Shown: one piece after another, positions 44,895 through 64,000 of the stretch
Layout of the letters: the number at the start of each line of letters is the position of its first letter
Position numbering within the stretch: the stretch's first letter is position 1
DNA from: a virus
DNA: 64,000 nucleotides
IMG/VR virus record: IMGVR_UViG_3300025617_000013
Location: 23,664-87,663 of that record
Reading direction: 5' to 3' (one strand)
Notes under the pieces: model-generated
The model's input: only the letters and a program-made list of their open reading frames with translations
Database searches by the model: none
Told to the model about the DNA's origin: nothing
Made by a program: the position numbers and the translations under genes

Positions 44895-45086
44895 ATGGGA
44901 TTATTAGATAAAGGCAGAACTAAGCCTAGTAATACGGGTACGGAATTAACTCAAGCAGGTTTAACCAAAGAAGATTTTAAATTTATTCTTGCTAAATTAA
45001 GATTAGCAGATTATAAAGGAACAGAATTTGAAGCTTTTTACGCCGTATACACAAAAATACAAGATCATATAAATAATCAAAAATAA
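44895..45086 (+). CDS. Small helical protein (63 aa)
   Basis: 63 residues. MGLLDKGRTKPSNTGTELTQAGLTKEDFKFILAKL is helical and charged, with no membrane segment. The end KIQDHINNQK is basic. I recall similar short GLTxEDFxFILxxL proteins beside structural genes in marine phages, without a function. It is followed by a terminator. Confidence 0.55.
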   Translation: MGLLDKGRTKPSNTGTELTQAGLTKEDFKFILAKLRLADYKGTEFEAFYAVYTKIQDHINNQK

Positions 45087-45112: not shown

Positions 45113-45187
45113 TATTTATAGGTATATTATAGGCCCGAAAGGGAAGTGGGCGGGAACGAACCCGTAACCTACCGTAATAGAGAAGAT
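45113..45187 (+). promoter_or_regulatory. Late-promoter-like motif and structured leader of fibre cluster
   Basis: TATTTATA (45113-45120) ends 67 nt before the ATG at 45188. The leader contains a CCC-GAAA-GGG tetraloop hairpin (45134-45143) and a two-part hairpin with outer stem GTGGG/CCTAC (45146-45150, 45168-45172) and inner CGGG/CCCG around AACGAA (45151-45164). This GC-rich structure stands out from the AT-rich surroundings and may influence translation or mRNA stability. Confidence 0.4.
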
Positions 45188-47215: not shown

Positions 47216-47216
47216 T

Positions 47217-50200
47217 ATGAAAATATTTGACCCAAAATTAACAGGAAGTATAGAAATCCTTAACACCATAAGCGGTAGTGTTGAAATACAACAAGATTTA
47301 ACAGTAGGGGGAACTATATTTGGAGATATAGAAGGAAGTATAGAGGGTACTGCAGCAACAGCTTCTTACGTAGAATTTAACAGTGTAGATGGATTATCTA
47401 CTTTTTCATCAAGTATTGAAGATAGAGTAACTTTACAAGAAGAATTTAGTTCTTCTTTAGACAGTACTTTTGCAACAGATACAGCAGTGGCAACTGCAGT
47501 TTTAAGCCTCAATGCTGCTACATCCTCATACCTACTTAACACCACAGATACGTTAGATGGGGATTTAACTGTGACAGGAACAATAACTGCTCAAGAATTT
47601 CATACAGAATATGTTAGTGCTTCTATTATTTATCAATCAGGATCAACACAGTTTGGAGATACTTCTGATGACACTCACATTTTTACCGGCAATATTGGTA
47701 TAGGCACGAATAGTCCTATACAAAAATTAGATGTAAATGGAAATATAGTTTCTAATTCATTTTATTTATATGATTCAACATCTAATGATAGAAACGTAAT
47801 GTTCCTTGACGGTTCAGATAATTTATTACTAGCAACAGGGACAAGTACTGGAGCAAGATCAATGCTTTTTTATACTGAAAACGCAGAACGTATGCGTATT
47901 GATTCTACGGGTAACGTAGGTATAGGAACGAGTAGTCCTGTAAGAAAACTTGATGTAAATAGTGGAGTTTCTTCTGATATAGTGAGGTTTGGAAATAATA
48001 GTGGAGCAATGACTTTTGGTCAAACACCTAATCAGTCAAGTCTTGACCTTGCTTCAAGCAACGTTTTTAGAATTAGACAAGGCTCTTCAATTCCATTTAT
48101 ATTAAGTTCAAGTGGTAATGTAGGTATCGGAACGACTAGTCCAGGTAGATTGCTTGAAGTTTATGGGGCTCTTGATGGTTATATTAAAGTCAATGGGGGC
48201 CGTTCTGGTAATCACGGTTTTACACTTGGTTCAGATGCATACGGTTTTATTATTTTTGACGATACATTAAGTAATTATAGATTTGTTATTGAACAAGACT
48301 CAGGCAACGTCGGGATCGGAACAGCTAATCCAAATGGAAAATTAGACGTGCAATCATCTAACACAGGAAATTTACTTTCTAGAGTTTACAACCCTAACAC
48401 CGGTGCTAGTTCTTCTGCTTCTTTTAGAATAGCTTCTGCCGCAAACAACGCAAACTCTGCTAGATTAGAATTTTCTGACGCTAGTTATTATACAGCTACA
48501 ATATCAGGAGATAGAGTTCAGGGGCTAGTTTTTAGAACATCAGCAACTGGGAGTAACCCCACTACGGTCCCTGAGAGAATGCGTATTGAATCAGATGGTA
48601 TAATTAGTATAGGTGAAGGTGCTACACAATCTTGGATAGCTAATAAAGTACAGACTACAACCACTGCAGTTTCAGGGAAGCAGGACATGTCTGACATAGA
48701 CAGAACCACAGCCAATTGGATGAGGATTACTAATCCTGTTTATTCAACAAATGGTTCTGTAGGTTTAATAATGCGTACTTTCCCAAATTCAGATGCAAGG
48801 CAGGGTGCTGGTATAATAGCTTCAGGAGGATCTGATAACGCGGCTACGGATTTAGATTTATTTGTTAGTCAACAAACATCTGGTGCTACAACGAGTACAT
48901 CATATTCTGCTCTATCGATAAAAGGTAACACAGGTAACGTAGGTATAGGTAACACAACACCTTCTGCTAACCTATATGTTTCCGGAGCAAATGGAGATGC
49001 GACTACTAAAGCAGAAATGCAATCAAACTCAGTATTTACTATAAAACCTTCTGCAACAAATTCTGGTAATTTAAATTTTGCTCAAGTAGATGGGGGTAAT
49101 TCAATAGGTATTCAATTTACAAACGGTGCAGGAACATCAGATTGGGATATAGCACTGAATCCATTTGGAGGTAACGTAGGTATAGGGGTAACTGCTCCAA
49201 GTGAGAAACTAGAAGTAGCAGGAAATGCTATTTTAGATGCCAGTAATGCTAGGTTGAAAATTAAAGGAGGTGTAACAGGAACTAATAGCGGTATAGATTG
49301 GACTTTTAATTCAGATTCAACACAGTATGCTAAAATAGAATTAGACTATGATACTAGAGCTACTACCGGACTATTGATAGATTCAGGATACCCGATGACC
49401 TTAGATTACAGTAGCGGTACTTTTAGTATTAAGAAAAATGGCTCAAGTGAGTTAACAATTCTAAATGGCAACGTAGGTATCGGAACGACTAGTCCGGGCT
49501 ATAAACTTGAGATAGATGGCACCCTTAAATCTACAGGTTGGGGTTATTTAGCCACTACGGGAGCTACAAGTATTGTAAATATTGGAAGCTCTAATGCAGC
49601 AGTGACGCAATTAAATCTCTCAACTTCGTCTTCGGGAGGCAGCACGGTAGCTGCTACAAATTCATTATCAATAAGCGTAAATAATACGACAGCAGCAAAA
49701 ATCCTGTCAAACGGAAATATAGGCATCGGAACGACTAGTCCTTCTGAAGCGCTGCACATATATCGCAATGCAGCATCTGCTGAGATAAGACTTCAGAACA
49801 ACAATATTAGCTCCTACATAAGAAGTAATACAGACAATTTAAACTTCTATGTATTTAATGGGGAGAAGATGCGTATCACCTTAGGTGGCAACGTAGGTAT
49901 AGGTACTACAAGCCCAAATTGCATGCTGGACGTTCAAGGGAACTCATCTTTTGGTTCTATAAAAAGCCTACAAGGAACATACCACCAGCCTAATAAGTGG
50001 CAAAAAGTTATAAGTTTTACTTATTCTGCATTTAGTTTTGATTCGTTTACTTTGATTGTTAATGAGGGAGGAGATACAGGTAATTACAATTCAAATGCTG
50101 AAGTATACATACATTATAAGTTCCAAAATAATAACGGTAGAATAGTAGCAAACATAATTAATTATGGAGATAAACCTATACTAGCTGAAAACTTTGAAAT

Positions 50201-51197
50201 TTATAAAACCGGTACAACTAACGGTACAATCACTATCTACCATAAGATGGTAAGGAATTACCAAACACCAAGTTACACACTTTTAGGACCTACAGTTAAT
50301 ATAGATTATACCTGGCACGGTACAGTAGTCGGTGATGACTTATCATCAGAAACAAACGACCCTTGGTTTATAAAAGATATTACAAACGGGTTAACCATCA
50401 ATGGAAGATCTGGTAATGTAGGTATAGGAAAAACTAGTCCTTCCTATAAACTTGATATAGATGGAGGATCATCAGTTCCACTACAGGTAAATTCTACTCA
50501 AGATTATATGATAGGTTTATCTAGATCTGGGGTATCTCAATGGTGGTTAAAAGCTTATACTAATGGAGCATTTGCTCTACATGAAAACGGAGTTGGTGAT
50601 CAAATATATATTCCAGGTGGCGGTAACGTAGGTATAGGTACAACAGCACCTGGTGAAAAACTTGATGTCAACGGGGCTGTACAAGCTGTAGCATATAAAG
50701 CTACAGGAGGAGGAACTTCCACTTTCGGTACGATGACTAAGGTATATCAAGATCTACATAAAAGATCTTTTGTTACAACTCATAATTTTACTTATGCTGG
50801 GACAGGTACATATTACTTTAACTTAGCTTTCCCAGCTTCCGGTACTATCGGATTTAACTTAAAGATTGTTACCAGTAGAAATGGTAACTGGAGAAATTTT
50901 GGATATATCGATCATCAAGGTTTCGTATATTGGGAAACAGATGGTGATTTTGTACACGAAGCAGGGGTAACCTCAATAGCATCAAGTCATGGAGGAGGTA
51001 TTACAGTAGGTAATCCGACTGGCTTTGGAGCTAATAGTATCTCAGCTTCAACCCCCGGCTCCCTTAATTACAACTACATGATCGTTAGATTTCCTATATA
51101 CTTCCCAGACGGTACCACCGGATCAGATGGATTCTGGAAAGTTCATTTAGATACTTATGGATACACCGGAGATACAGCATACTTCTTAAAAGCATAA
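47217..51197 (+). CDS. Fibre/adhesin paralogue 1, NVGIGTTSP repeats, unique tip (1326 aa)
   Basis: N-terminal MKIFDPKLTGSIEILNTISG, then a trunk block with TLDGDLTVTGTITAQEFHTE and SGSTQFGDTSDD (about nt 47550-47690) shared by four other proteins downstream. More than eight NVGIGTxSP turns follow, separated by beta domains of differing sequence. The unique C-terminal tip has VYQDLHKRSFVTTHNFTYAG, YYFNLAFPASGTIGF and YFPDGTTGSDGFWKVH, with no S74 domain. This is the architecture of phage and bacterial repeat-shaft adhesins. The tip is probably the receptor-binding part. It is preceded by 1 nt after the previous stop and probably shares the promoter at 45113. Confidence 0.8.
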   Translation: MKIFDPKLTGSIEILNTISGSVEIQQDLTVGGTIFGDIEGSIEGTAATASYVEFNSVDGLSTFSSSIEDRVTLQEEFSSSLDSTFATDTAVATAVLSLNAATSSYLLNTTDTLDGDLTVTGTITAQEFHTEYVSASIIYQSGSTQFGDTSDDTHIFTGNIGIGTNSPIQKLDVNGNIVSNSFYLYDSTSNDRNVMFLDGSDNLLLATGTSTGARSMLFYTENAERMRIDSTGNVGIGTSSPVRKLDVNSGVSSDIVRFGNNSGAMTFGQTPNQSSLDLASSNVFRIRQGSSIPFILSSSGNVGIGTTSPGRLLEVYGALDGYIKVNGGRSGNHGFTLGSDAYGFIIFDDTLSNYRFVIEQDSGNVGIGTANPNGKLDVQSSNTGNLLSRVYNPNTGASSSASFRIASAANNANSARLEFSDASYYTATISGDRVQGLVFRTSATGSNPTTVPERMRIESDGIISIGEGATQSWIANKVQTTTTAVSGKQDMSDIDRTTANWMRITNPVYSTNGSVGLIMRTFPNSDARQGAGIIASGGSDNAATDLDLFVSQQTSGATTSTSYSALSIKGNTGNVGIGNTTPSANLYVSGANGDATTKAEMQSNSVFTIKPSATNSGNLNFAQVDGGNSIGIQFTNGAGTSDWDIALNPFGGNVGIGVTAPSEKLEVAGNAILDASNARLKIKGGVTGTNSGIDWTFNSDSTQYAKIELDYDTRATTGLLIDSGYPMTLDYSSGTFSIKKNGSSELTILNGNVGIGTTSPGYKLEIDGTLKSTGWGYLATTGATSIVNIGSSNAAVTQLNLSTSSSGGSTVAATNSLSISVNNTTAAKILSNGNIGIGTTSPSEALHIYRNAASAEIRLQNNNISSYIRSNTDNLNFYVFNGEKMRITLGGNVGIGTTSPNCMLDVQGNSSFGSIKSLQGTYHQPNKWQKVISFTYSAFSFDSFTLIVNEGGDTGNYNSNAEVYIHYKFQNNNGRIVANIINYGDKPILAENFEIYKTGTTNGTITIYHKMVRNYQTPSYTLLGPTVNIDYTWHGTVVGDDLSSETNDPWFIKDITNGLTINGRSGNVGIGKTSPSYKLDIDGGSSVPLQVNSTQDYMIGLSRSGVSQWWLKAYTNGAFALHENGVGDQIYIPGGGNVGIGTTAPGEKLDVNGAVQAVAYKATGGGTSTFGTMTKVYQDLHKRSFVTTHNFTYAGTGTYYFNLAFPASGTIGFNLKIVTSRNGNWRNFGYIDHQGFVYWETDGDFVHEAGVTSIASSHGGGITVGNPTGFGANSISASTPGSLNYNYMIVRFPIYFPDGTTGSDGFWKVHLDTYGYTGDTAYFLKA

Positions 51198-51231
51198 AAT
51201 ATTTATAATAAAATAACCAAAGAATGATAAT
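51195..51231 (+). repeat. 37-bp direct repeat with late motif, copy 1
   Basis: It is identical to 57609-57645. It spans the end of one fibre gene or its partner, the TATTTATA at 51200-51207 and the first eight bases (ATGATAAT) of the next fibre gene. The octamer ends 16 nt before the ATG. Confidence 0.8.
51200..51207 (+). promoter_or_regulatory. Late-promoter-like TATTTATA before fibre paralogue 2
   Basis: The octamer overlaps the direct repeat and ends 16 nt before the ATG at 51224. Confidence 0.55.
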
Positions 51232-53935
51232 TTACGATCCTTACCTAACCGGAAGTTTGACAATAAATGGAGCTTTAGTAGACTCTTTAGGAAACTTAGA
51301 TAACATATCTTCTTCGGTACACTCTCTAACACAAGACTCTGCTTCTTTTTCAACAAGAGTATCTTCAACAGAAGGTAATATAACAGCTTTAAATGCTGCT
51401 TCATCATCATATGCATTAAAGACTGAAATAAGTGGATCATTTACTTCGGTATCGCAATCATTTGCTTCAGAAAGACTTAAGAATACTACAGATATACTTA
51501 ATGGTGATTTAACTGTAACAGGAACGATCACAGCACAGGAGTTCCACACCGAGTTTGTAAGTGCTAGTATTCTTTATCAAAGCGGTTCAACACAATTCGG
51601 TAATTCAACTGATGATGAACATAACTTTACCGGAACTTTAACTAATACAGGGAATGTAGGTATAGGTACGACTGATCCTAGTACTAAGTTAGAAGTTAAT
51701 GAACAAACAGCTAATACTTCTGCTTATATTACAGTGGACTCATTAAGTTGGAATGCAGGTATAAGTTTAAAAAATGGGAATGGAACTTGGGAAATATTAA
51801 ATGACTACACAGGATTAGGGACTACTGATACATTAGGTTTCTTTAATAATGGTTATCATATGGTTATTGATAATACAGGTAAAGTAGGTATAGGCACAAG
51901 TAGTCCCGCAAAAAAACTTGACGTAAATGGAACAGTTAGAGGTTTAACCTTAGTTGCAGATGACACTACTGTTCAGACGGGTTTTAACGGCAATTCTTTA
52001 ATACAAATAAGCAGGGGAGCAGCACCTTCTTATTTACAGTTTATTTCCCCAACTAATCAACAACAAGGTATTTTATTTGGAGATACAGATGATACTGTTA
52101 TGGGATCTGTTAGATATGACCATACAGGGGATTATATGTGGTTTGAGGCTAATAACGCAGAACGTATGCGTATTGACTCAAGCGGTAAAGTAGGTATAGG
52201 TGCTACAAATCCTACTGAAAAATTAACTGTAAATGGAAATATAAACTTTCCGTTTGATACGACAGGTGCATATTATTTTGGAATTCAGCCTTCTCCTTCA
52301 AACCCATTTTCAACCAGTGCAAGGGAACTTATAATAAGAGGAGCTAATGCCTATCAAGGGGCAAATCCTTCACAAGCGCAAGCAGGTGGGGATGTTTATA
52401 TAAAAGGAGGTTATTCCATAGCTAATACAGGTATTGGTGCGTATGCTGGAGATGTAAATATAGAGGGGGGAGAAACTCATACTGGCGGTACAGATGGAGC
52501 AGGTATAATTACGCTTAAGACCGCAGGAACAGAACGTATGCGTATTAATTCCGGTGGCAACGTAGGTATAGGTATTACGAACCCAACTGAAGCACTTACA
52601 GTGCAAGACTCAATCGGAGTTCAACTTGGCTTTAAAAGATTCTACTCAGGATTCGGTACTGTACCAGCTGGCGTAGGTTCAGCTTATAATTTACCTGTTA
52701 CATTAAATCAGGCACAAGGAACTACATTAACCTCTACATATCAATATAAGATATTTTTAACCACTACAGGTACAGGTACATATAATAGTTCCGTATACAT
52801 TATATATATCAATAGTGATGCATCTGCTTGGGTAGGAAGGGAGTTATCTAGAAGCGGCACCTCAAGTAACCACCCGGAATTAGATATAATTAATGGTAGC
52901 GCGGTAATATTTAATGATCATCCGAACGCTTACGGTGTTTATTATAGAGTAGAGACAACCCATACAGGTCAAGCTAAAACAAGTCCTAATATTTTTGGTA
53001 GTGACTTTATGTGGCAAAGGACAGATACCCGATTAACATATGAGGACGGTAACGTAGGTATAGGTACAAGTAATCCAAGTGCTAAGTTAGATGTTAATGG
53101 AATAACTAGAGTATCAGGAGATTTTGCTGGAACAGGTCAAAACCCATTAATACAGTTATATAATACAGATACTTCTTTAGGCGCAGATCAAATACTTGGT
53201 GATATTGATTTCTATCAGTCTGACGCTTCAGGAGGTGGAGCGGGCGTAGTTGGAAGGATAAGATCTATTAATGATAGTAATTTTAAAGGAGAAGCATCTT
53301 TAACATTTCATACTGGGGAAGCTAATGTAAGCTTTCAAGAACGTATGCGTATTACAAGTGGTGGGGCTGTTATAATTGGGACAGGAGGTGCATTTTCAGC
53401 AGGTAGTGGAAACATACAAATTAATCGTTCACCTGATGGTGGTTATATTCAAACAAGTGCTGTATTAACTTCAGCAGTAGACCAAAGATACTTTTACAAC
53501 CCAAATGGATTAGTTGGTAGAATAGAAACATCAGGTTCTTCAACTTCTTATATAACTACTTCTGACTATAGATTAAAAGAAAATGTAATACCATTAACAA
53601 ATGCTTTAGATAGATTAGATGCTCTTAAACCTTCTCGCTTTAACTTTATAGCAGATGGTAACAAAACAGTAGACGGATTTTTAGCACACGAAGTACAAGA
53701 TATAGTTCCTGAAGCTATTAGTGGAGAAAAAGATGCTACCGAAGAATATGAAGTTACACCTGCCATTTTAGACGAAGAAGGTAATGTAAGTGAAGAAGCG
53801 GTAATGGGAACAAGAGACGTTTATCAAGGAATAGATCAATCTAAAATAGTACCTTTATTGACTGCTGCTTTACAAGAAGCAAACGCATTGATAAAAGAAT
53901 TACAGACTAGAGTACACAACTTAGAAAATAATTAA
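51224..53935 (+). CDS. Fibre/adhesin paralogue 2 with S74 chaperone (903 aa)
   Basis: MIIYDPYLTGSLTING opens it, then the shared trunk block (ILNGDLTVTGTITAQEFHTE, SGSTQFGNSTDD). Beta domains with NVGIGTTDP, KVGIGTSSP and ERMRI turns follow. It ends in a complete S74 domain: TTSDYRLKENVIPLTNALDR (Ser-Asp...Lys catalytic pair), DGFLAHEVQDIVPE, DQSKIVPLLTAALQEANAL and a coiled coil. Self-cleavage before that Ser would release the chaperone after trimerisation. It is the only full member of the cluster with S74 visible; the giant protein at 2-8650 has another. Confidence 0.85.
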   Translation: MIIYDPYLTGSLTINGALVDSLGNLDNISSSVHSLTQDSASFSTRVSSTEGNITALNAASSSYALKTEISGSFTSVSQSFASERLKNTTDILNGDLTVTGTITAQEFHTEFVSASILYQSGSTQFGNSTDDEHNFTGTLTNTGNVGIGTTDPSTKLEVNEQTANTSAYITVDSLSWNAGISLKNGNGTWEILNDYTGLGTTDTLGFFNNGYHMVIDNTGKVGIGTSSPAKKLDVNGTVRGLTLVADDTTVQTGFNGNSLIQISRGAAPSYLQFISPTNQQQGILFGDTDDTVMGSVRYDHTGDYMWFEANNAERMRIDSSGKVGIGATNPTEKLTVNGNINFPFDTTGAYYFGIQPSPSNPFSTSARELIIRGANAYQGANPSQAQAGGDVYIKGGYSIANTGIGAYAGDVNIEGGETHTGGTDGAGIITLKTAGTERMRINSGGNVGIGITNPTEALTVQDSIGVQLGFKRFYSGFGTVPAGVGSAYNLPVTLNQAQGTTLTSTYQYKIFLTTTGTGTYNSSVYIIYINSDASAWVGRELSRSGTSSNHPELDIINGSAVIFNDHPNAYGVYYRVETTHTGQAKTSPNIFGSDFMWQRTDTRLTYEDGNVGIGTSNPSAKLDVNGITRVSGDFAGTGQNPLIQLYNTDTSLGADQILGDIDFYQSDASGGGAGVVGRIRSINDSNFKGEASLTFHTGEANVSFQERMRITSGGAVIIGTGGAFSAGSGNIQINRSPDGGYIQTSAVLTSAVDQRYFYNPNGLVGRIETSGSSTSYITTSDYRLKENVIPLTNALDRLDALKPSRFNFIADGNKTVDGFLAHEVQDIVPEAISGEKDATEEYEVTPAILDEEGNVSEEAVMGTRDVYQGIDQSKIVPLLTAALQEANALIKELQTRVHNLENN

Positions 53936-53937
53936 TT

Positions 53938-54111
53938 ATGGCTTATAAAATCCTAAAACAATTCCAACCAAACTCTAAAAATGTTTGGGTAGAAAAATTA
54001 TCTAATGAAGATACACTAGATGTATTTGATACACAAGAATTAGCAGAGAATAAACTAAGTGAATTACAATCCTCAGATTCAACCAGAGAATATAAAATTG
54101 TAGAGGTCTAA
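53938..54111 (+). CDS. Small fibre-partner protein (57 aa)
   Basis: 57 residues, beginning MAYKILKQFQPNSKNVWVEK and ending REYKIVEV. ATG follows the upstream stop by 2 nt. It resembles short beta-hairpin phage proteins found between fibre genes. A fibre-assembly or chaperone partner role is guessed only from position. Confidence 0.55.
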   Translation: MAYKILKQFQPNSKNVWVEKLSNEDTLDVFDTQELAENKLSELQSSDSTREYKIVEV

Positions 54112-54118
54112 TACACTC

Positions 54119-54169
54119 AACAGTCCTATTTATTAGTATATCCCTTTTGGATAGTGAAAAAAGGACTGT
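54119..54169 (+). promoter_or_regulatory. Inverted repeat enclosing late-type motif
   Basis: A perfect 8-bp inverted repeat ACAGTCCT/AGGACTGT (54119-54126, 54162-54169) encloses TATTTATT (54127-54134). The right arm ends 3 nt before the next ATG. The RNA could fold to hide the start region; as DNA the arms could bind a protein. Confidence 0.4.
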
Positions 54170-54172
54170 AAC

Positions 54173-57100
54173 ATGGCAAATAAATTTGTAGCCCGTAAAG
54201 GGTTAATCTCATTAGATGATACTGAAATAACAGGATCTCTAAGTATCACTGAAAACATAATCGCCGCCGGCACTATTCAAGCAGCTTTTGCTGGGAGTAC
54301 CTCTACGGCTATATCTGGAGCATTTACAGATGTATCTAGTTCTCTATCAGGACGAATTACTTCTAATGAAGTAAGTGTTAGTTCTCTAAATTCTAATACT
54401 TCTTCTTATGCATTAAAAACAGATATTACCGGATCATTCACCGATGTATCAGCATCAATAACCTCAGAGAGGTTAAAAAATACTACAGATACTTTAGACG
54501 GAGATCTTACAGTTACAGGAACAATTACTGCACAGGAATTTCATACAGAATTAGTTTCTGCTTCTATCATATATGAATCAGGTTCAACACAATTTGGTAA
54601 TTCATCGGATGATACTCATAGTTTTACTGGTACTCTGACTAATACAGGAAATGTAGGTATCGGGACGACTAGTCCTTTTGATTCTAAATTACAAGTAGTT
54701 GGAAGAATTAGAGCAGCAGGTGGAACAAGTGGAGGGTATTTCTTTGGTTCAGAAGAATTTGACGGAGGTTTTTACGCTCCTTCGGATGGTAATTTAGCTT
54801 TTAGCACAAACGGTACTGAAAGAATACGTATTGATGGTAATGGCAACGTAGGTATCGGGACGACTAGTCCTTTGCATCTACTTCACGTTAACGGAGCTTC
54901 AGACGGTAACTCTATTTACACTGCAATGTTACAAAATACTGGAACTGCACCTAATACCGCAAGTAAATTATTATTTGTTCAAGGTGGAAGTACGATAAGA
55001 GGTGCGGTAATTGGTGGATTACAAGAAGCCACAGCTGGCTCTCCTACATCTATGGTTTTTGAAACATCTGCAGCTTATGCTACTCCTACAGAAAAAATGC
55101 GTATTACTTCAGATGGTAACGTAGGTATCGGAACGACTAGTCCTACTTCAGCTAAATTAGTAGTTGCTGGAGATCTGGATGTTTGGAGCTCCACAAACAC
55201 ACTTTTAAGATCTGCACATAATGGAAGTTTCGGAAGCTTACAAACTTACACGGGCGGCGCATATGGAATTTTAACACTTAATCCAGGAGGCGGCAACGTC
55301 GGGATCGGTACGACTTCGCCTAGCAAAAAGCTTGACGTAGATGGTGCTATAAGAACACGTAATAGCTTTAACGTATCCGATGGTACCACGCAAATTGGAG
55401 GATTATTTCCTTACAAAGTTATTACAGGTGCTGGAACTGATAATTCATTGGCATTATTTACTGAAAATGGGTTAGACCTTCACTTTATGACAGACGGAAG
55501 CATTTCGTCTAAAATGATTATAAAATCAGGTGGCAACGTAGGTATCGGGACGACTAGTCCTGGGGCTAAGTTAGATGTAGAGGATTCTGGTGCTGATTTA
55601 ATTGATTTAACTAGAACTTCTGTAGGTACTTATAGATTAGCTATTTCTGGGAACGATAGATTTTCTATATATGACGTTGGAGAATCTTCTGAAAGATTAA
55701 GTATCACTAGCACTGGCAACGTAGGTATAGGTACAACTTCTCCAGACACACCTTTACATATTGATTATGAACAGTCATCCTTAGCAGGAAATTCGTGGAT
55801 TGGATTACATGTAGACAGATCGTATGCATCAACAGCAGGATTTTATACAGGTTTAGCTCTGACAGCATATCAAAATAAAGGAGCATTGATAGGAGCAGAC
55901 GGTAACCAAAACTTAATGTTCTTCAATTATGACGGAGTAAACAATGTTACTACATCTGAAGCAATGCGACTAAATGCTAATGGAGTTTTAAACATCTACA
56001 AAGGAAGTTCCTCTAATGACAATATTAGATTTTATAATACAGACGGTAACTACGCCTACATTAGAACTACATCAGCTAATAATTTGAATAATGTTTGGTT
56101 TGACGGTACGCTAGGGTGTATACAGTGGTATGCTTGGGATAACCCAGGAGGAGCAAGAACAGCCGATACTTATACAACACATTATTTCGGTATCGGAAGA
56201 GGTACAGATTATGAATCTGTTAGGATTGAAAGAGGGGTTATAACCGGTAAAGAAAATAGTAATACCGATAGGTATAAAATAAACCCAGTAGGTGATAGTT
56301 ACTTTAATGGTGGTAACGTAGGTATAGGTACGAGCAGCCCTGATGCTAATCTAGAGATTTCTAAAAATGCTGGAGCAGACCCTGGCCCAGTTGATGAGCC
56401 AGTTACACTCAGGTTAACAGACGCAGGAAATGCTGCGAACGGATTAGGCGATACAACAAATCCTTGGGCTGAAATTCAATTCTATAGCGAAGATGCTTCT
56501 TCAGGTGGACCATCTATACAAGCTAAAATAGCTACAATATATGATGATATTTATTCTGCAGGTTCTCACATAGTATTTTATAATACATCAACTCCAACTA
56601 ACGGGTTATCGGAAAGGATGCGTATTAATTCTGTAGGTAATGTAAGCATAGGAACTGCAGCAGTAGCATCAGCAAATGCAGCTGCAGATAATTTTGTTAT
56701 TAAAGGAGAAGGAACCGCAGTAGGTTTGACAATATCAAATTCTGTAAACTCAGGAACAGGTACAATCTTTTTTGGAGATGCAGCAAGTTCAACAGTAGCA
56801 GGTTTTAGATATAATCATAATACTGGAGATATGGCAGTAGCTTTTGAAGATGATATTACCTTTAGTTCCAGCGGTTACGAAAAAGCTCGTATTCTATCAA
56901 GTGGAGGTATTACCTTCAACGGTGATACTTCTACTTCAAATGCTCTTGATGATTATGAAGAAGGGACTTTTACTCCAGTAATCGGAGATGGAACATATAC
57001 GTATTCCAATAGAAGAGGACATTATGTTAAAATAGGTAATTTAGTTTATGTTCATATAGGATTAAGATTAGCATCAGCATCTCCCGGTTCAAGCACGGCA

Positions 57101-57349
57101 AATATAAGTGGTTTACCTTTTACTAGCGCAAATTTCGGGTCTTATCAAGAACCTCATACAAGAGTAGGAATGGCAGGCTTATGTGTAACAGCTAACTTAT
57201 CCTACAATTTGAGTTTTTACATTGCTAGCAATAACAGTGTAATTTATGCTAGAACATCAGCTAGTAACGTAGACTCCCCAGTAGCTTCAAATCAACTATG
57301 GAAAGCAGGAACTTTTATAAAATACCAGTTAATTTATACAGTTAGTTAA
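54173..57349 (+). CDS. Fibre/adhesin paralogue 3 with jelly-roll tip (1058 aa)
   Basis: MANKFVARKGLISLDDTEITG is a recognisable phage-fibre start (KFVxRKGLxSLxxxxIxG). The shared trunk (TLDGDLTVTGTITAQEFHTE, SGSTQFGNSSDD) and many NVGIGTTSP turns follow. The C-terminus has ALDDYEEGTFTPVIGDGT, then HYVKIGNLVYVHIGLRLASA and ISGLPFTSANFG, a jelly-roll tip common in phage receptor-binding proteins. The tip is homologous to that of the protein at 57638. No S74 is present. Confidence 0.82.
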   Translation: MANKFVARKGLISLDDTEITGSLSITENIIAAGTIQAAFAGSTSTAISGAFTDVSSSLSGRITSNEVSVSSLNSNTSSYALKTDITGSFTDVSASITSERLKNTTDTLDGDLTVTGTITAQEFHTELVSASIIYESGSTQFGNSSDDTHSFTGTLTNTGNVGIGTTSPFDSKLQVVGRIRAAGGTSGGYFFGSEEFDGGFYAPSDGNLAFSTNGTERIRIDGNGNVGIGTTSPLHLLHVNGASDGNSIYTAMLQNTGTAPNTASKLLFVQGGSTIRGAVIGGLQEATAGSPTSMVFETSAAYATPTEKMRITSDGNVGIGTTSPTSAKLVVAGDLDVWSSTNTLLRSAHNGSFGSLQTYTGGAYGILTLNPGGGNVGIGTTSPSKKLDVDGAIRTRNSFNVSDGTTQIGGLFPYKVITGAGTDNSLALFTENGLDLHFMTDGSISSKMIIKSGGNVGIGTTSPGAKLDVEDSGADLIDLTRTSVGTYRLAISGNDRFSIYDVGESSERLSITSTGNVGIGTTSPDTPLHIDYEQSSLAGNSWIGLHVDRSYASTAGFYTGLALTAYQNKGALIGADGNQNLMFFNYDGVNNVTTSEAMRLNANGVLNIYKGSSSNDNIRFYNTDGNYAYIRTTSANNLNNVWFDGTLGCIQWYAWDNPGGARTADTYTTHYFGIGRGTDYESVRIERGVITGKENSNTDRYKINPVGDSYFNGGNVGIGTSSPDANLEISKNAGADPGPVDEPVTLRLTDAGNAANGLGDTTNPWAEIQFYSEDASSGGPSIQAKIATIYDDIYSAGSHIVFYNTSTPTNGLSERMRINSVGNVSIGTAAVASANAAADNFVIKGEGTAVGLTISNSVNSGTGTIFFGDAASSTVAGFRYNHNTGDMAVAFEDDITFSSSGYEKARILSSGGITFNGDTSTSNALDDYEEGTFTPVIGDGTYTYSNRRGHYVKIGNLVYVHIGLRLASASPGSSTANISGLPFTSANFGSYQEPHTRVGMAGLCVTANLSYNLSFYIASNNSVIYARTSASNVDSPVASNQLWKAGTFIKYQLIYTVS

Positions 57350-57359
57350 GATTTATATT

Positions 57360-57611
57360 ATGGCAATAACAAAAACAATAACAATCGACAAAATTGAAAT
57401 CGTAGGAGATTTTAAGAACATTCAAGTAAGACAAGCTTCTGTTATCGAAGAAGATGGTGTTGAGCTTACAAGAAGCTTTCATAGGTATGTATTATCTCCG
57501 GGTAATGATCTTACAGAACAACCTACAGAGATACAGTCTATCGCTAATGTAGTTTGGACAGAAGAAATTATTACAGCATACCAAGCCTCTCAAGAACAAA
57601 CAGTAGAGTAA
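57360..57611 (+). CDS. Small fibre-partner protein A (83 aa)
   Basis: 83 residues. MAITKTITIDKIEIVGDFKNIQVRQ opens it and VWTEEIITAYQASQEQTVE ends it. It is paralogous to the protein at 61751. A MAxTKxxxxDKIEIVxxFKxIQVR start beside fibre genes is common in phages of this kind; the protein may assist fibre assembly or cap the fibre end, but no function has been shown to me. The stop is 2 nt before the late-type repeat. Confidence 0.65.
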   Translation: MAITKTITIDKIEIVGDFKNIQVRQASVIEEDGVELTRSFHRYVLSPGNDLTEQPTEIQSIANVVWTEEIITAYQASQEQTVE

Positions 57612-57645
57612 AATATTTATAATAAAATAACCAAAGAATGATAAT
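57609..57645 (+). repeat. 37-bp direct repeat with late motif, copy 2
   Basis: It is identical to 51195-51231. TATTTATA is at 57614-57621 and ends 16 nt before the ATG. Copies before two different fibre genes suggest duplication of a whole promoter-fibre cassette. Confidence 0.8.
57614..57621 (+). promoter_or_regulatory. Late-promoter-like TATTTATA before fibre paralogue 4
   Basis: Same position and sequence as the copy before fibre paralogue 2, ending 16 nt before the ATG at 57638. Confidence 0.55.
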
Positions 57646-60600
57646 AGATAACCCCATAGTCTCCGGCTCATTAGATATACAAAATGATGTAACGGCTTCA
57701 AACTTACTACTCCGAGGTACAGCTTCTGGGGTATTTTCTGGTTCATTTTTAGGGGATGGATCACAGCTTTCCGGTGTAACATCTTATACAGATTCAGATA
57801 CACTCACCTATATTAATACATTAGGGGTACTATCAGGTTCAGCACAAATAGCATCTGATATATCTGGTTCATTTACAGATTTGTCTAGTTCAATTCAAGG
57901 TAGAGTAGCAGCTCAAGAAAGCTTCAGCTCATCATTAAGTACTACAGAACTAATACTATCAGGTTCTTTTTCAGGAAGTTTTATTGGTGATGGATCTCAA
58001 CTATCAGGAGTTACTTCATATACAGATTCAGATACTTTAGCCTTTATAAATTCAAAAACAGTACTATCAGGTTCGATTGCAGAACTTACATCAGTTACAG
58101 CTTCATTTTTGAATACAGGTTCGGTAACTATACCGCATGGCTTCAATTCAAAGAACGTCTCTATCGCCGTTTATGATGATAGTGATATACTTATTATACC
58201 CCAAGAAATTGCACTCGTTAGCAACAATGCTGTTAAGGTAACTTTTGGAGGGTTAACTTCTGGATTTGCTGTAGTAGCAAAAGGTGGACATATAGTATCA
58301 GGTTCTGTACCGGTACCTCAATTATCAACAGTTGCAGATTCATTTACATCTACAACTTCTCATACAGTCACACATAACTTTAATACTAAAAACGTAATAG
58401 TATCGGTATATGAAGGAGATAATTATATTATACCAGATACAATAACTACCCCTACAGACAATACTGTTGAAGTTACCTTCCCTGAAGCGATTTCAGGTAG
58501 AGTGGTAGTGGTAAAGTCTGGACATATAGTATCAGGTTCTATACCATACAGTAACTTATCTAATACACCAACACTTCTTTCATCTTCAGCTCAAATAGCA
58601 TCTGATATTTCAGGTTCGTTTACCTCTCTTAGTTCTTCATTTCAAGGAAGAATTTCTACTAATGAAGATAATATTGGATCATTAACGGCTAGTACGTCTT
58701 CTTATGCATTAAAAGAACAAATCTCAGGTTCGTTTACTTCGGTTTCACAATCATTTGCATCAGAAAGACTTAAAAATACTACGGATACATTAGATGGGGA
58801 TTTAACTGTAACAGGAACAATAACTGCTCAAGAATTTCATACAGAATTTGTTTCTTCTTCTATTATTTATCAATCAGGTTCAACACAGTTTGGAGATACA
58901 TCTGACGATACTCATATTTTTACCGGTACTGTAGGTATAGGTACGAGTAGTCCTTCTACTTTACTTACTGCTGATTTAGGCGCAAGTGGAAATATTGCAC
59001 ATTTTGAGGGTAACAGTAATGTTCATTTAAGAATTGGAGAATCTTCAGGAGATATGTACTTAAATGCTAATAATGGCAACGCTACCATTGCATTTCAAAC
59101 AAATACTGTAGAACGTATGCGTATTGACTCTAGTGGGAATCTAAATTTTAGCACCGCAGATGGAGTAGGAATTACATTTAAGGAATCAGGATTTATTACC
59201 ATTGACTCGGATAACAACGATTCTAGTAGAAACTTCCAATTTAAGGACGGTAGTGGTAGTACGTTAATGACTTTACTCGATACAGGTAATGTAGGTATCG
59301 GAATAACTGATCCTCAAAATAGATTATCCCTGGGCTCTACTCAAGGAAGTGGTATTGACTTCCTGTACGATGCTACTAATACATATAAAAACCAGATAAA
59401 AAACTATTGGAACTCTAGTACAGATACTAGAATGGATTTCAATATCGGTAGAACAGCTAATGTTACACCTGTAACTGTTATGTCCGTAGGATATAATAGT
59501 AACGTAGGTATAGGTACTACAAGTCCAACTGAAAAATTGGAAGTTAATGGAACTGGTAGATTTACAAATTCATCAACCGCTATTGGTATAATACTTAATA
59601 GAGGTTTAGATGTTAATTCTGTAGGAGAAGCAGGAGTTGGTATGCAATTAGGTGCATTAGACGGTTCTACATATAAAGAAGGTGTAACCATGTACGGCTC
59701 TTTAAAATCAAACGGAGACGATGGTGGATTTACCGTGCAAGTCAGAAAGTCAAATGTTATGCAAACTCGTTTTACTATAAATGAAGACGGTAACGTAGGA
59801 ATCGGTACGACTTCGCCTTCAAGTGGTGCTAAATTAGACGTAAATGGAAGTTTAGCTATAGCTAATACAGGTCAACTTAATCTTACCCGTACTTTGGATA
59901 CTAATAATCTTTGGTACGGGATGAGATATGATAATGATGAAGTTCAAATTTATACATATTACCCATCAAACAGGAGTATAACTTTCAATACTGTTTCTGG
60001 AGGAACAGGAATTACCAATCAATTAATGAAAATTGAAGCTGGCGGTAACGTAGGTATAGGTACGACTAGTCCTGAACAGAAAATGCATATTGAAGGAGCA
60101 TCATTAACCGTAAATAGAGCAAATGATGACAGTTCTGTTGCTTTTCAAAATTCGGCAACTAATGCAACTTGGAGAATTGGTAGAGATTATTCTAATTCAG
60201 AAGCATTGACTTTTGCTTATTCCGTATCCGGCTACCCTTCTTTAACTGGTAATACAATAACGGTAATTGATACAAGCGGTAACATAGGTATCGGTACGAG
60301 TAGTCCAGCTGCTAAATTAGATGTTTACGGTTCTTCGAATAGTGCTGATAATATGATTGAGCTAATAAACTCAAAATACGACAGCACAGACACAACAGGA
60401 GAAACAGGTATACTGTTTGGATGGAATAATCACGTTGCAGCAAGAATAACTGCTTTTAAAGAAGGTACTGTAAATCGAACAGGTTTTAAAATTATAGGAG
60501 AAGCTGGGTTTAACGTACCTACAACAATTGCTACGTTTAGATCAACAGGTTTAGTAGGGATAGGTACTACAAGTCCATCGGATCCTTTACATATACTTTC

Positions 60601-61735
60601 ATCGACTAACATAACCAGATTTGAATCCTCTACTACTGGACTATATAATACTTATAAAAATTCAAATGGAATATTTGGGTATGTAGGAACTGGTTCTCAA
60701 ACAGTTTCAGGAGGTGGTTCTGATGATTTTGGTATACAATCAGCTAACAATTTTGTAATAGCTACAGGTGGGAATACGGAACGTATGCGTATTACAAGTG
60801 GGGGTCAAGTTAATATCGGATATAATGGCACTGCAAGAGGTAGTGTTAATACTGTTTTAATGGTTGGTAAAACAGGAGCAACTTACCTTGAAATAAATGG
60901 AGGAGATACATCTGGACAAGGAGGATTGTTGTTTGCAGATGGTTCTGGAGGAGCGTATGGTTTAATAAATTACCTTCACGCTTCTGACGAAATGCAGTTT
61001 TATACTGCTGAAGCAGAACGTATGCTCATCACCTCAAGTGGTATTATTCAAACAAATGTTACTAAACCATTAGGAAGTGATACTCCTAACTTAAGGTTAA
61101 AAGTTACTCCTACAGGTACTAATTATTCCTCAGGTGCTTATGTTAATATAGTTTTTGGAGATGAAACTGTTACCAATAGTTATCTTGGAGACATACAAGT
61201 AGTTCAAGGAGATCCTTCCATCAGTACAGCAACTACAATGAGATTTCTTACAAATTCAGGAGGAGGTAATGCTGCTACTCAAGAACGTATGCGTATTCTA
61301 CCAAGTGGGGGGATTACCTTCAACGGAGATACTTCTACTTCAAATGCTTTAGATGATTATGAAGAAGGTACTTGGACGCCTACTTTTCCTGACGCAGGTA
61401 ATGTTAGTTCGGTAGCTATTTCTGGAACAGCTGTCTATACAAAAATAGGAAGAATAGTTCATTTAGCTTTAGAAGTAAGCGGCCAATTCATTTCTACAGG
61501 TACTGAATCTTTATTCTCTTTTACACTTCCTTTTACAGCCGCTTCCACTACTATGGATCATGTTGGAACTGCAACTTTTTTTATAGGCACTGGTGCTAAT
61601 AGATTCGGTATGGGTAGTGTTTTTCAAGGAACCACAACCAACAGCAAAACATATGTATACATACCAGCAAGAGAAGTACAGCAATCAGGAACTTGGGGAC
61701 AAATGAGAATTAGTTTAACATATTTTGCATTATAA
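57638..61735 (+). CDS. Fibre/adhesin paralogue 4 with Ig-like modules and jelly-roll tip (1365 aa)
   Basis: MIIDNPIVSGSLDIQNDV opens it. FSGSFxGDGSQLSGVTSYTD repeats and two modules like SVTIPHGFNSKNVSIAVYDD follow, related to those in the protein at 45188. Next come the shared trunk (LTVTGTITAQEFHTE, SGSTQFGDTSDD) and many NVGIGTTSP and ERMRI turns. The C-terminus has ALDDYEEGTWTPTFPDAG, TKIGRIVHLALEVSGQF and a jelly-roll like that of the protein at 54173. It is the longest complete fibre paralogue in the cluster and looks like a mosaic of its neighbours. Confidence 0.82.
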   Translation: MIIDNPIVSGSLDIQNDVTASNLLLRGTASGVFSGSFLGDGSQLSGVTSYTDSDTLTYINTLGVLSGSAQIASDISGSFTDLSSSIQGRVAAQESFSSSLSTTELILSGSFSGSFIGDGSQLSGVTSYTDSDTLAFINSKTVLSGSIAELTSVTASFLNTGSVTIPHGFNSKNVSIAVYDDSDILIIPQEIALVSNNAVKVTFGGLTSGFAVVAKGGHIVSGSVPVPQLSTVADSFTSTTSHTVTHNFNTKNVIVSVYEGDNYIIPDTITTPTDNTVEVTFPEAISGRVVVVKSGHIVSGSIPYSNLSNTPTLLSSSAQIASDISGSFTSLSSSFQGRISTNEDNIGSLTASTSSYALKEQISGSFTSVSQSFASERLKNTTDTLDGDLTVTGTITAQEFHTEFVSSSIIYQSGSTQFGDTSDDTHIFTGTVGIGTSSPSTLLTADLGASGNIAHFEGNSNVHLRIGESSGDMYLNANNGNATIAFQTNTVERMRIDSSGNLNFSTADGVGITFKESGFITIDSDNNDSSRNFQFKDGSGSTLMTLLDTGNVGIGITDPQNRLSLGSTQGSGIDFLYDATNTYKNQIKNYWNSSTDTRMDFNIGRTANVTPVTVMSVGYNSNVGIGTTSPTEKLEVNGTGRFTNSSTAIGIILNRGLDVNSVGEAGVGMQLGALDGSTYKEGVTMYGSLKSNGDDGGFTVQVRKSNVMQTRFTINEDGNVGIGTTSPSSGAKLDVNGSLAIANTGQLNLTRTLDTNNLWYGMRYDNDEVQIYTYYPSNRSITFNTVSGGTGITNQLMKIEAGGNVGIGTTSPEQKMHIEGASLTVNRANDDSSVAFQNSATNATWRIGRDYSNSEALTFAYSVSGYPSLTGNTITVIDTSGNIGIGTSSPAAKLDVYGSSNSADNMIELINSKYDSTDTTGETGILFGWNNHVAARITAFKEGTVNRTGFKIIGEAGFNVPTTIATFRSTGLVGIGTTSPSDPLHILSSTNITRFESSTTGLYNTYKNSNGIFGYVGTGSQTVSGGGSDDFGIQSANNFVIATGGNTERMRITSGGQVNIGYNGTARGSVNTVLMVGKTGATYLEINGGDTSGQGGLLFADGSGGAYGLINYLHASDEMQFYTAEAERMLITSSGIIQTNVTKPLGSDTPNLRLKVTPTGTNYSSGAYVNIVFGDETVTNSYLGDIQVVQGDPSISTATTMRFLTNSGGGNAATQERMRILPSGGITFNGDTSTSNALDDYEEGTWTPTFPDAGNVSSVAISGTAVYTKIGRIVHLALEVSGQFISTGTESLFSFTLPFTAASTTMDHVGTATFFIGTGANRFGMGSVFQGTTTNSKTYVYIPAREVQQSGTWGQMRISLTYFAL

Positions 61736-61750
61736 TAATAGTAAATAAAA

Positions 61751-62002
61751 ATGGCATTAACAAAACAAAAAGTACAAGATAAAGTAGAAATAGTATCTAC
61801 TTTTAAACACATTCAAATTCGTTACTCTAATCAAATATTAGAAGATGGAGTAGTAATTTCTGATTCATTTGAGCGTACCGTAGTATCTTGCGGTGAATAC
61901 GATAAAGCAGATGAACATAACGTAAGAGCAATAGCAGATGCAGTTTGGACAGAAGAAATAGTTGAAGCATATCAAGCCTCTCAAGTACAAACAGTAGAGT
62001 AA
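61751..62002 (+). CDS. Small fibre-partner protein B (83 aa)
   Basis: 83 residues, paralogous to the protein at 57360: DKVEIVSTFKHIQIR, EDGV, VWTEEIVEAYQASQVQTVE. The last 30 or so bases of both genes are nearly identical and run into the same TATTTATA. Duplicated fibre-plus-partner cassettes explain this. Confidence 0.65.
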   Translation: MALTKQKVQDKVEIVSTFKHIQIRYSNQILEDGVVISDSFERTVVSCGEYDKADEHNVRAIADAVWTEEIVEAYQASQVQTVE

Positions 62003-62027
62003 AATATTTATAAACAAAGCACCAAAG
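62000..62027 (+). promoter_or_regulatory. Late-promoter-like TATTTATA, diverged third copy of the repeat
   Basis: The sequence opens like the 37-bp repeat (TAAAATATTTATA at 62000-62012), then diverges but keeps ACCAAAG. The octamer ends 23 nt before the ATG at 62036. Confidence 0.5.
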
Positions 62028-62035
62028 CATAACTA

Positions 62036-64000
62036 ATGAAAATATACAACCCCACAGGATTTAGCTCAAATCTAACAGGATCTTTTACAGGATCATTTAA
62101 AGGAGAGTTCGACGGAATATTCTCTGAAGAAACCTCAAATAATATTTCAGGAGCATTTGAGGAAGTATCCTCTTCTTTATCAGCACGTATATCTTCAAAT
62201 GAAAGTAATGTTAGTTCTTTAAATTCTTCTACTTCTTCCTACCTTTTAAACTCCACAGATACTTTAGATGGAGATTTAACTGTTACGGGAACAATCACGG
62301 CCCAAGAATTTCATACAGAATTTGTTTCTTCTTCAATAATCTATGAATCAGGTTCAACTAAGTTTGGAGATACTTCTGATGATATTCATTCATTTTCAGG
62401 CTCTTTAAGAGTAAAAGGTTCAGGAGATCATTATTTCACTGACGGTAACGTAGGTATTGGTACGACTAGTCCTGGTAGTTACGACACTGCTATAATAGGC
62501 AGCGGTCATAAGTTCTTAAACGTTCAAGCTAGCTCTACTAATTACGCAGTACAAACATTAGCAGGTAATAGCAGTACAAATGGAAATAGACTAGGTTATT
62601 TAACTTTTGTTAATAACAATAATAGCGCCACTTATAAATATTCTGCTTGGATAGGTTCTGAAATAGAAGGTACAACTGCAAACAAACAAGGTGGAAGGTT
62701 AATTTTCTCAACTACTTCAGATAATTCAACAGCTGGACCTATTGAACGAATGCGCATTAACGCATCAGGTAACGTAGGTATCGGGACTACTAGTCCTAGT
62801 GCTAAGTTACAAGTTACTGGAGCAAGTGGAGCAATCTCAGGTACGGGAATGACGTACTTAAATAATTCAGATGATGCATTTTCTTTAGTAATTAACAATG
62901 CAGGTAATTCATCTCAAAATGATAGAGGCGTATTTGATGCTAGAGTAGGAGATAGTTCTGTGTTTAGGATAAATAACTCTGGCAACGTAGGGATCGGAAC
63001 GACTAGTCCTGGAAGTAGAAGACTAAGCGTTGTTAAAGATAGTGGTATTACCTCTGGTTTTAATGATATAACAGAGTTTTTAGATACAACTTTAGGTGGT
63101 GGTGGTTCAGTAAGTTTAAATATTGGTAGAGCAAATAGTACTAAAAACTTAGGTAAAATGGCGTTTAAATATGCCAGCTCAGGCTCTAATAATAACGAAT
63201 TGAACTTTGGGTTTTATGATGCTGATAATTTGATGACCATACAAGCAGGCGGTAACGTTGGGATCGGGACGACTAGTCCAGCATCTAAACTACATATAAA
63301 AACGTCTGTTGATAATAGTGTTGCTCAAGGATTAGTTATTGAGAGAAGCGCAAACAGTGATAAGGGTTATATAAATTATAACGGAGGTGGATTTCAGTTT
63401 AGGTCAACAGTGGGGGACCCTATTGTATTTGGTGAAACAGACGCTGAACATATGCGAATCTTGCCTGACGGTAACGTCGGTATCGGAACGACTAATCCTG
63501 CTAAAAAACTTACGGTTAATGGTAGCTTTAAACTTGGTACAAATGCTTATATTGAATACGGAGGTGTTTATCCTTATACTATAACAACTGCAAATACAGC
63601 AGCAGTTGGTAATTTGGTTTTTAGTGCAGGTTTAGGAAGTGCTGCATACGAATCAAAAATAGATTTACAAGGAACTAACGCAGCAGGCGTTGCTGGTATA
63701 ACATTATCCACTGCTGCAACTGCTAGAATGGTTGTAACTGCAGACGGCAACGTAGGTATAGGTAGGACTGATCCTGGAGCAAAAATGGCTTTTGGAAATT
63801 TTGTAGATACAAACGGATATGATATAGGTACAATACGTTTTTATGATAATAATGATGGTATAATCTACGGTATTGGTGTAAGTAATAATCAATTTAATTT
63901 AAGAGCTGGTACAACTTCTGATGGTTTTGCTTTTTGGGCTGGAACTAGCCATAGAATGCAAATTCAAGCAACCACCGGTAACGTAGGAATCGGTACGACT
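62036..64000 (+). CDS. Fibre/adhesin paralogue 5 (3' truncated by window)
   Basis: The frame opens at ATG 62036 (MKIYNPTGFSSNLTGSFTGS) and stays open to the window end, about 655 codons. FKGEFDGIFSEETSNNISGAF is followed by the shared trunk (TLDGDLTVTGTITAQEFHTE, SGSTKFGDTSDD) and at least six NVGIGTTSP-type turns. It has no stop in the window, so the tip is unknown. It belongs to the tandem fibre array. Confidence 0.8.
   Translation, partial: MKIYNPTGFSSNLTGSFTGSFKGEFDGIFSEETSNNISGAFEEVSSSLSARISSNESNVSSLNSSTSSYLLNSTDTLDGDLTVTGTITAQEFHTEFVSSSIIYESGSTKFGDTSDDIHSFSGSLRVKGSGDHYFTDGNVGIGTTSPGSYDTAIIGSGHKFLNVQASSTNYAVQTLAGNSSTNGNRLGYLTFVNNNNSATYKYSAWIGSEIEGTTANKQGGRLIFSTTSDNSTAGPIERMRINASGNVGIGTTSPSAKLQVTGASGAISGTGMTYLNNSDDAFSLVINNAGNSSQNDRGVFDARVGDSSVFRINNSGNVGIGTTSPGSRRLSVVKDSGITSGFNDITEFLDTTLGGGGSVSLNIGRANSTKNLGKMAFKYASSGSNNNELNFGFYDADNLMTIQAGGNVGIGTTSPASKLHIKTSVDNSVAQGLVIERSANSDKGYINYNGGGFQFRSTVGDPIVFGETDAEHMRILPDGNVGIGTTNPAKKLTVNGSFKLGTNAYIEYGGVYPYTITTANTAAVGNLVFSAGLGSAAYESKIDLQGTNAAGVAGITLSTAATARMVVTADGNVGIGRTDPGAKMAFGNFVDTNGYDIGTIRFYDNNDGIIYGIGVSNNQFNLRAGTTSDGFAFWAGTSHRMQIQATTGNVGIGTT

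Follow-up and report, generated by a model that had tools for sequence, protein, structure and literature searches.

The 64,000-nucleotide (nt) stretch analysed here (hereafter the window; IMG/VR record IMGVR_UViG_3300025617_000013, positions 23,664 to 87,663) carries five adjacent tail-fibre genes, F1 to F5, on its plus strand. We consider it rather probable that these genes constitute a five-slot tail-fibre array with exchangeable tips and tip-specific folding aids, in a T4-like phage probably of Bacteroidota. The record is an 87,663-bp (87.7-kb) fragment whose end is also the end of the window. Its terminase, portal, prohead protease, major capsid protein and neck protein match T4-like families, and the closest cultured relative by major capsid protein is Flavobacterium phage immuto (Immutovirus; 67% identity). 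The record is a marine virus of bacteria, T4-like and related to immuto, and a Bacteroidota host is likely for the phage that carries the array. No DNA-level match to the array was found among annotated phages.

An initial annotation, made from the letters of the window, had described five neighbouring fibre genes with a common trunk and unlike ends, and this description was borne out. Uninterrupted open reading frames (ORFs) are present for F1 (47217 to 51197; 1326 amino acids, aa), F2 (51224 to 53935; 903 aa), F3 (54173 to 57349; 1058 aa), F4 (57638 to 61735; 1365 aa) and F5 (62036 to 64000; at least 655 aa), and all five products match tail-fibre families of the PHROGs database. Each carries the trunk, running from DGDLTVTGTITAQEFHTE to SGSTxFG, and then 4-11 GN[VI]GIG repeats (the NVGIG shaft); the trunk motif TAQEFHTE lies at residue 124 in F1, 103 in F2, 119 in F3, 396 in F4 and 88 in F5. 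When the whole record was searched with the DNA of the F1 trunk, exactly five places were returned, and these correspond to F1-F5. Chance cannot explain one long peptide recurring in five neighbouring ORFs, and the five trunks are paralogous and diverged (69-92% at the nt level). Each fibre opens with its own short peptide: MKIFDP in F1 (N-terminus MKIFDPKLTGSIEI), MIIYDP in F2 (MIIYDPYLTGS), MANKF..RKG in F3 (MANKFVARKG), MIIDNP in F4 (MIIDNPIVSGS) and MKIYNP in F5 (MKIYNPTGFSSN). In F4 the trunk sits ∼300 residues further in than in the other fibres, and hence it is a mid-fibre module and not the N-terminal anchor, a role that falls more probably to the slot-specific peptide at the N-terminus. 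The C-termini are of different kinds: F1 has a unique tip, for which searches of phages and viral contigs returned no relative at the sensitivity applied, F2 ends in an S74 domain, and F3 and F4 end in two related domains. The tip of F5 is, as had been stated, out of sight, since the gene is cut off by the end of the record and of the assembly. We also looked for decay of the paralogues and for equivalence of the tips, either of which would speak against a multi-adhesin arrangement; all four complete genes are intact, and those tips that are visible fall into different classes.

The evidence for tip exchange comes from related contigs. One of them (L395, 17.7 kb) carries, in series, U3 (a fibre-like gene that in the window lies directly upstream of F1), slot 1, slot 2, an extra fibre, a 57-aa gene, slot 3 and slot 4. 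A second (L017) runs from the end of slot 3 through slots 4 and 5, and there the array stops, an indication that no further TAQEFHTE gene follows F5. The N-terminal 407 aa of slot 4 are 94% identical between L017 and L395. A further version of the array (L396/L397) keeps the slot order and the slot-specific N-termini and has other tips. The N-terminal 40 aa cluster by slot, whereas the best C-terminal matches cross slots: the slot-5 tip of L017 is closest to that of slot 3 in L396 (62%), and the slot-3 tip of L017 to one in slot 4 (62%). Moreover, slot 3 has a jelly-roll tip in the window and an S74 tip in L395 and L396, slot 4 a jelly-roll in the window and S74 in L017, and slot 2 S74 in the window and in L019 and another tip in L395, where the slot-2 fibre is followed by a tail-fibre-assembly gene (Phage_tail_APC, PF16778, phrog_4912). 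That N-termini follow the slot and C-termini do not is comparative evidence of tip exchange, which is what the initial annotation had proposed to look for in related phages. The N-terminal part of F2 resembles that of slot 2 in L395, and its C-terminal part that of the extra fibre next door; this state of F2 is consistent with the loss of one fibre by recombination, as far as these sequences indicate.

Comparison of the paralogues within the window revealed islands of DNA identity with abrupt borders, located at the borders of modules. The trunk modules of F1 (47556 to 47700) and F4 (58793 to 58909) share an island that is 98% identical over its first 45 nt, with 14 of 15 codons identical, and on either side of it identity falls to about half. 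A second island, 93% identical over 45 nt, marks the entry into the tips of F3 and F4. The third block comprises the end of two paralogous 83-aa genes, described below, and the leader that follows. This 37-nt leader is identical before F2 (51195 to 51223, beginning with the F1 stop) and F4 (57609 to 57637), and a related copy precedes F5. The leader before F3 (54130-54172) is unlike the others and has a nearly identical counterpart in L395 (TATATCCCTTTTGGATAGTGAAAAAAGGACTGTAA); its RNA folding was not significant (z 0.75). It is plausible that the islands are recombination points.

The tips of F3 (56879 to 57343) and F4 (61283 to 61726) are 49% identical over 88 aa, and consist of a common half, LDDYEEG...YxKIGN...GLPF, and a variable outer half. 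The model of the F3 tip (predicted local distance difference test, pLDDT, 82) matched jelly-roll viral heads in Foldseek, among them the C-terminal domain of the Dettilon tailspike (6F7K; E-value 6e-5, template-modeling score 0.62-0.66) and 7QRR (E-value 3e-4); a profile match to the Dettilon domain was also obtained (E-value 1.6e-3). The jelly-roll assignment of the initial annotation is therefore upheld for F3 by the fold of its model, and for F4 by its sequence relation to F3. The tip of F2 is an S74 (PF13884) intramolecular chaperone domain (53549 to 53914; E-value 6e-10, 39.6 bits against a cut-off of 22). The Ser-Lys pair of S74 domains is kept in F2 as Ser780 and Lys785 in SDYRLK. Many fibres of related arrays likewise end in PF13884; among the four complete fibres of the window, however, Pfam found it in F2 alone, and not in F1, F3 or F4.

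Three small genes between the fibres are absent from the initial annotation. Two are the 83-aa genes that directly follow the jelly-roll tips, at 57360 to 57611 after F3 and at 61751 to 62002 after F4; both lie on the plus strand, and both products match phrog_6228, a family of unknown function, over the full length (E-values 5e-28 and 6e-18). To see how regular this pairing is, contigs were gathered by the tip motif alone and ranked by similarity to the F3 tip, a choice that may favour closer relatives; phrog_6228 stands directly after the tip in 65 of 77 informative cases, is found elsewhere in the locus in 9, and is lacking in 3. It followed none of 46 S74-ended fibres and none of 750 other ORFs. 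In a pooled set, which includes loci retrieved with phrog_6228 itself, the figures were 112/131 for tips and 0/79 for S74-ended genes. Conversely, 65 of the 70 phrog_6228 genes that have an upstream gene follow an LDDYEEG-type tip. The same pair occurs in the cultured pelagiphage HTVC304P (gp42-gp43) and cyanophage ACG-2014j (gp191-gp192), where all are labelled hypothetical, and phrog_6228 ranges over podoviruses and myoviruses of SAR11, Prochlorococcus, Synechococcus and roseobacters, in addition to this relative of immuto. The model of the 83-aa protein has three strands and two helices (pLDDT 94.5). Nothing usable was found for it in Pfam, among PDB sequences or by Foldseek against the PDB, and its one close viral match is itself of unknown function. 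A gene directly downstream of the tip and linked to the tip class is what characterizes trans-acting tail-fibre chaperones, and phrog_6228 is probably a trans-acting assembly factor for the LDDYEEG tip class. We lean, with less assurance, towards a broader statement: that phrog_6228 represents an unrecognised class of trans-acting fibre-assembly factors dedicated to the LDDYEEG head, constant while the heads turn over, and that the pair is a common socket for receptor-binding tips.

Taken together, we propose the following mechanism. The slot-specific N-terminus would serve as the attachment peptide, followed by the shared mid-fibre module, an NVGIG shaft of variable length and an exchangeable tip. 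Each tip class would have its folding aid, S74 in cis for F2 and phrog_6228 in trans for F3 and F4, the latter presumably recognising the conserved half of the tip and helping the tip to fold or trimerise. Tips could be swapped between slots and between phages by homologous recombination at the trunk module, at the tip-entry block and at the end of the 83-aa gene with its leader, and the same process could add or remove one fibre. The virion would display all the fibres, each with a different receptor.

Several points weigh against this mechanism. phrog_6228 has no homology to the known fibre chaperones with which it was compared (V22 gp27, S74, DUF7936, Phage_tail_APC), and no co-divergence with its tip was detected, though this would be expected under one-to-one matching; any action of phrog_6228 on the tip would most likely depend on recognition of the conserved half or of the fold. 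The C-terminal similarity between F2 and the neighbouring fibre of L395 amounts to just 36%, and the islands could partly reflect selection on sequence. The contigs compared are few, all of them fragments, with at least 25% DNA divergence, so that individual exchange events are undatable. A different role for the 83-aa protein, as a subunit that stays permanently on the tip to cap it or to bind the receptor, like the gp38 adhesin of T2/S16-type phages, has in its favour that the gene lies directly downstream of the tip, as gp38 lies directly downstream of gp37, and that it is nearly always present with the tip. We regard this role as unlikely, because the 83-aa protein is more conserved than the tip (mean frequency of the most common residue 0.59, against 0.29 in the outer half of the tip) and near-identical copies accompany unrelated tips, the opposite of what a specificity subunit would show.

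It is also conceivable, though we doubt it, that the array supplies only one or two adsorption fibres, the others being structural whiskers, neck or baseplate fibres whose C-termini are trimerisation caps: S74 domains are normally removed and bind nothing, and the upstream genes U1-U3 are fibre-like too and carry no such tips, but the jelly-roll tips are similar to receptor-binding heads (TP901-1, Dettilon), and the high variability of their outer half is what receptor binding predicts. Tandem duplication followed by divergence in place, with tips differing by drift and not by exchange, would account for five clearly paralogous trunks as diverged as those seen here, and yet appears very improbable given the unrelated folds (S74 and jelly-roll) at orthologous slots, the best tips that cross slots and the abrupt borders of the islands. 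The repeated blocks between the genes might further suggest a silent store of tips for one expressed fibre, switched by inversion, retrohoming or directed recombination. We give this hardly any credence: each fibre gene has a full N-terminus and its own start, the array has no inverted repeats, and a search of the record, incomplete as it is, for a resolvase/invertase or a reverse transcriptase was negative (no PF00078 or PF00239 match). Of the initial suggestion that the array is a stock of parts for tip swapping, the swapping is thus backed by the comparison of relatives, and silent storage found no positive support.

The remaining features of the locus are as follows. The third small gene, encoding 57 aa (53938 to 54111, plus strand), has no PHROG match; it is retained between slot 2 and slot 3 of L395 and L396 (relatives 56-60% identical), and occurs beside other fibre-like genes in L044. 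U3 (45188 to 47215, plus strand; N-terminus MPNWKKLIVSGS) lacks TAQEFHTE, and its ORF is also open from a GTG at 45146. Its C-terminus and the U3/F1 junction are kept in L395 (75.7% nt identity over 46382-47282). U3 contains three stretches of repeated ∼70-aa phrog_21918 domains, and the extra N-terminal part of F4 (∼58085-58520) is related to it, so that modules are common to different fibre-like genes. A 63-aa gene (44895-45086), with relatives in 49 loci, lies between two fibre-like genes of WKK type. Between the NVGIG repeats, F1 (49935-50415) and F2 (∼52595-53045) each contain a ∼150-aa non-repeat domain; the two are mutually unrelated, had no match among the compared loci, and are possibly lateral binding domains. 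An ORF of ∼2850 aa opens the window (2-8650). Scans for promoters and terminators yielded hits in no useful excess of those in shuffled sequence, and neither Rfam matches in the array nor tRNA genes in the window were found.

Other contigs show further arrangements. Two (L053, 6923-16978; L054, 134-10039) encode single giant proteins of ∼3300 aa with two or three TAQEFHTE modules per chain, which suggests fused fibres or duplication within a gene. In a contig with an 82% identical capsid protein (L399, 1-8743) the same place is taken by another tandem array, in which paralogous fibre-like genes alternate and two C-terminal types recur. DUF7936 (PF25590) genes directly follow some fibres, seven of them S74-ended (for example L395 5050-5370 and L402 17783-18124), and this small family is another candidate for association with fibres.

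Host choice by a phage is set by its receptor-binding proteins, and most fibres of marine phages are unannotated. The array offers a grammar in which a slot-specific base, a shared shaft and a swappable tip are combined with a folding aid, in cis or in trans, that is tied to the tip class. If our interpretation is correct, LDDYEEG together with phrog_6228 would be a simple signature for receptor-binding heads in many uncharacterised ocean phages, cultured pelagiphages and cyanophages included, and LDDYEEG heads would be predicted to need their partner for expression and study.

With immuto, the record shares the order terminase-portal-protease-major capsid protein-PhoH-neck-fibre region, but the two examined parts of the immuto genome yielded no TAQEFHTE protein. 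The F3 tip is similar in fold, and weakly in profile, to the C-terminal domain of Dettilon gp208 (PDB 6F7K/6F7D), from which it differs in its low identity (16-17%) and in its shaft. Alteromonas phages V22 and A5 have a tail fibre and a separate chaperone that resembles intramolecular chaperones (PMC10579305). As proposed here, a tip is followed by a small separate gene that would replace a cis S74-type domain, and the pair spans distant phages; V22 gp27, however, has 195 aa and no profile similarity to phrog_6228 (hhalign probability 0.1%), and the V22 fibre has none to the LDDYEEG tip. The Phage_tail_APC/Tfa-like gene (PF16778) after the slot-2 fibre of L395 occupies the type of position held by phrog_6228, but is also without profile similarity to it. 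The closest parallel in organization is provided by the tailspike proteins (TSP1-TSP4) of Ackermannviridae (Kuttervirus), tandem receptor-binding proteins typed by their N-termini, whose C-terminal modules are exchanged between types at a conserved motif, and where a fifth added gene led to recombination or loss of neighbours (PMC8432352, PMC11414711). Adjacent paralogues, N-termini conserved by slot and exchanged tips are found here too, on few contigs. F1-F5 are, in contrast, long repeat fibres with S74 or jelly-roll tips and not β-helix spikes (a sequence search with Pfam detected neither XD/gp10-like domains nor β-helix spikes in F1-F5 or U1-U3), and their folding aids vary between slots. 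No paper on TAQEFHTE, DDYEEG, phrog_6228 or DUF7936 was found in the literature searched, which left out most subscription journals. In general plan the array is not new, since arrays of several spikes whose slots are typed by N-terminus and whose tips are swapped have been described already; what is new, as far as that literature reaches, is the widespread pair of LDDYEEG tip and phrog_6228, and the combination, across slots, of folding aids in cis and in trans.

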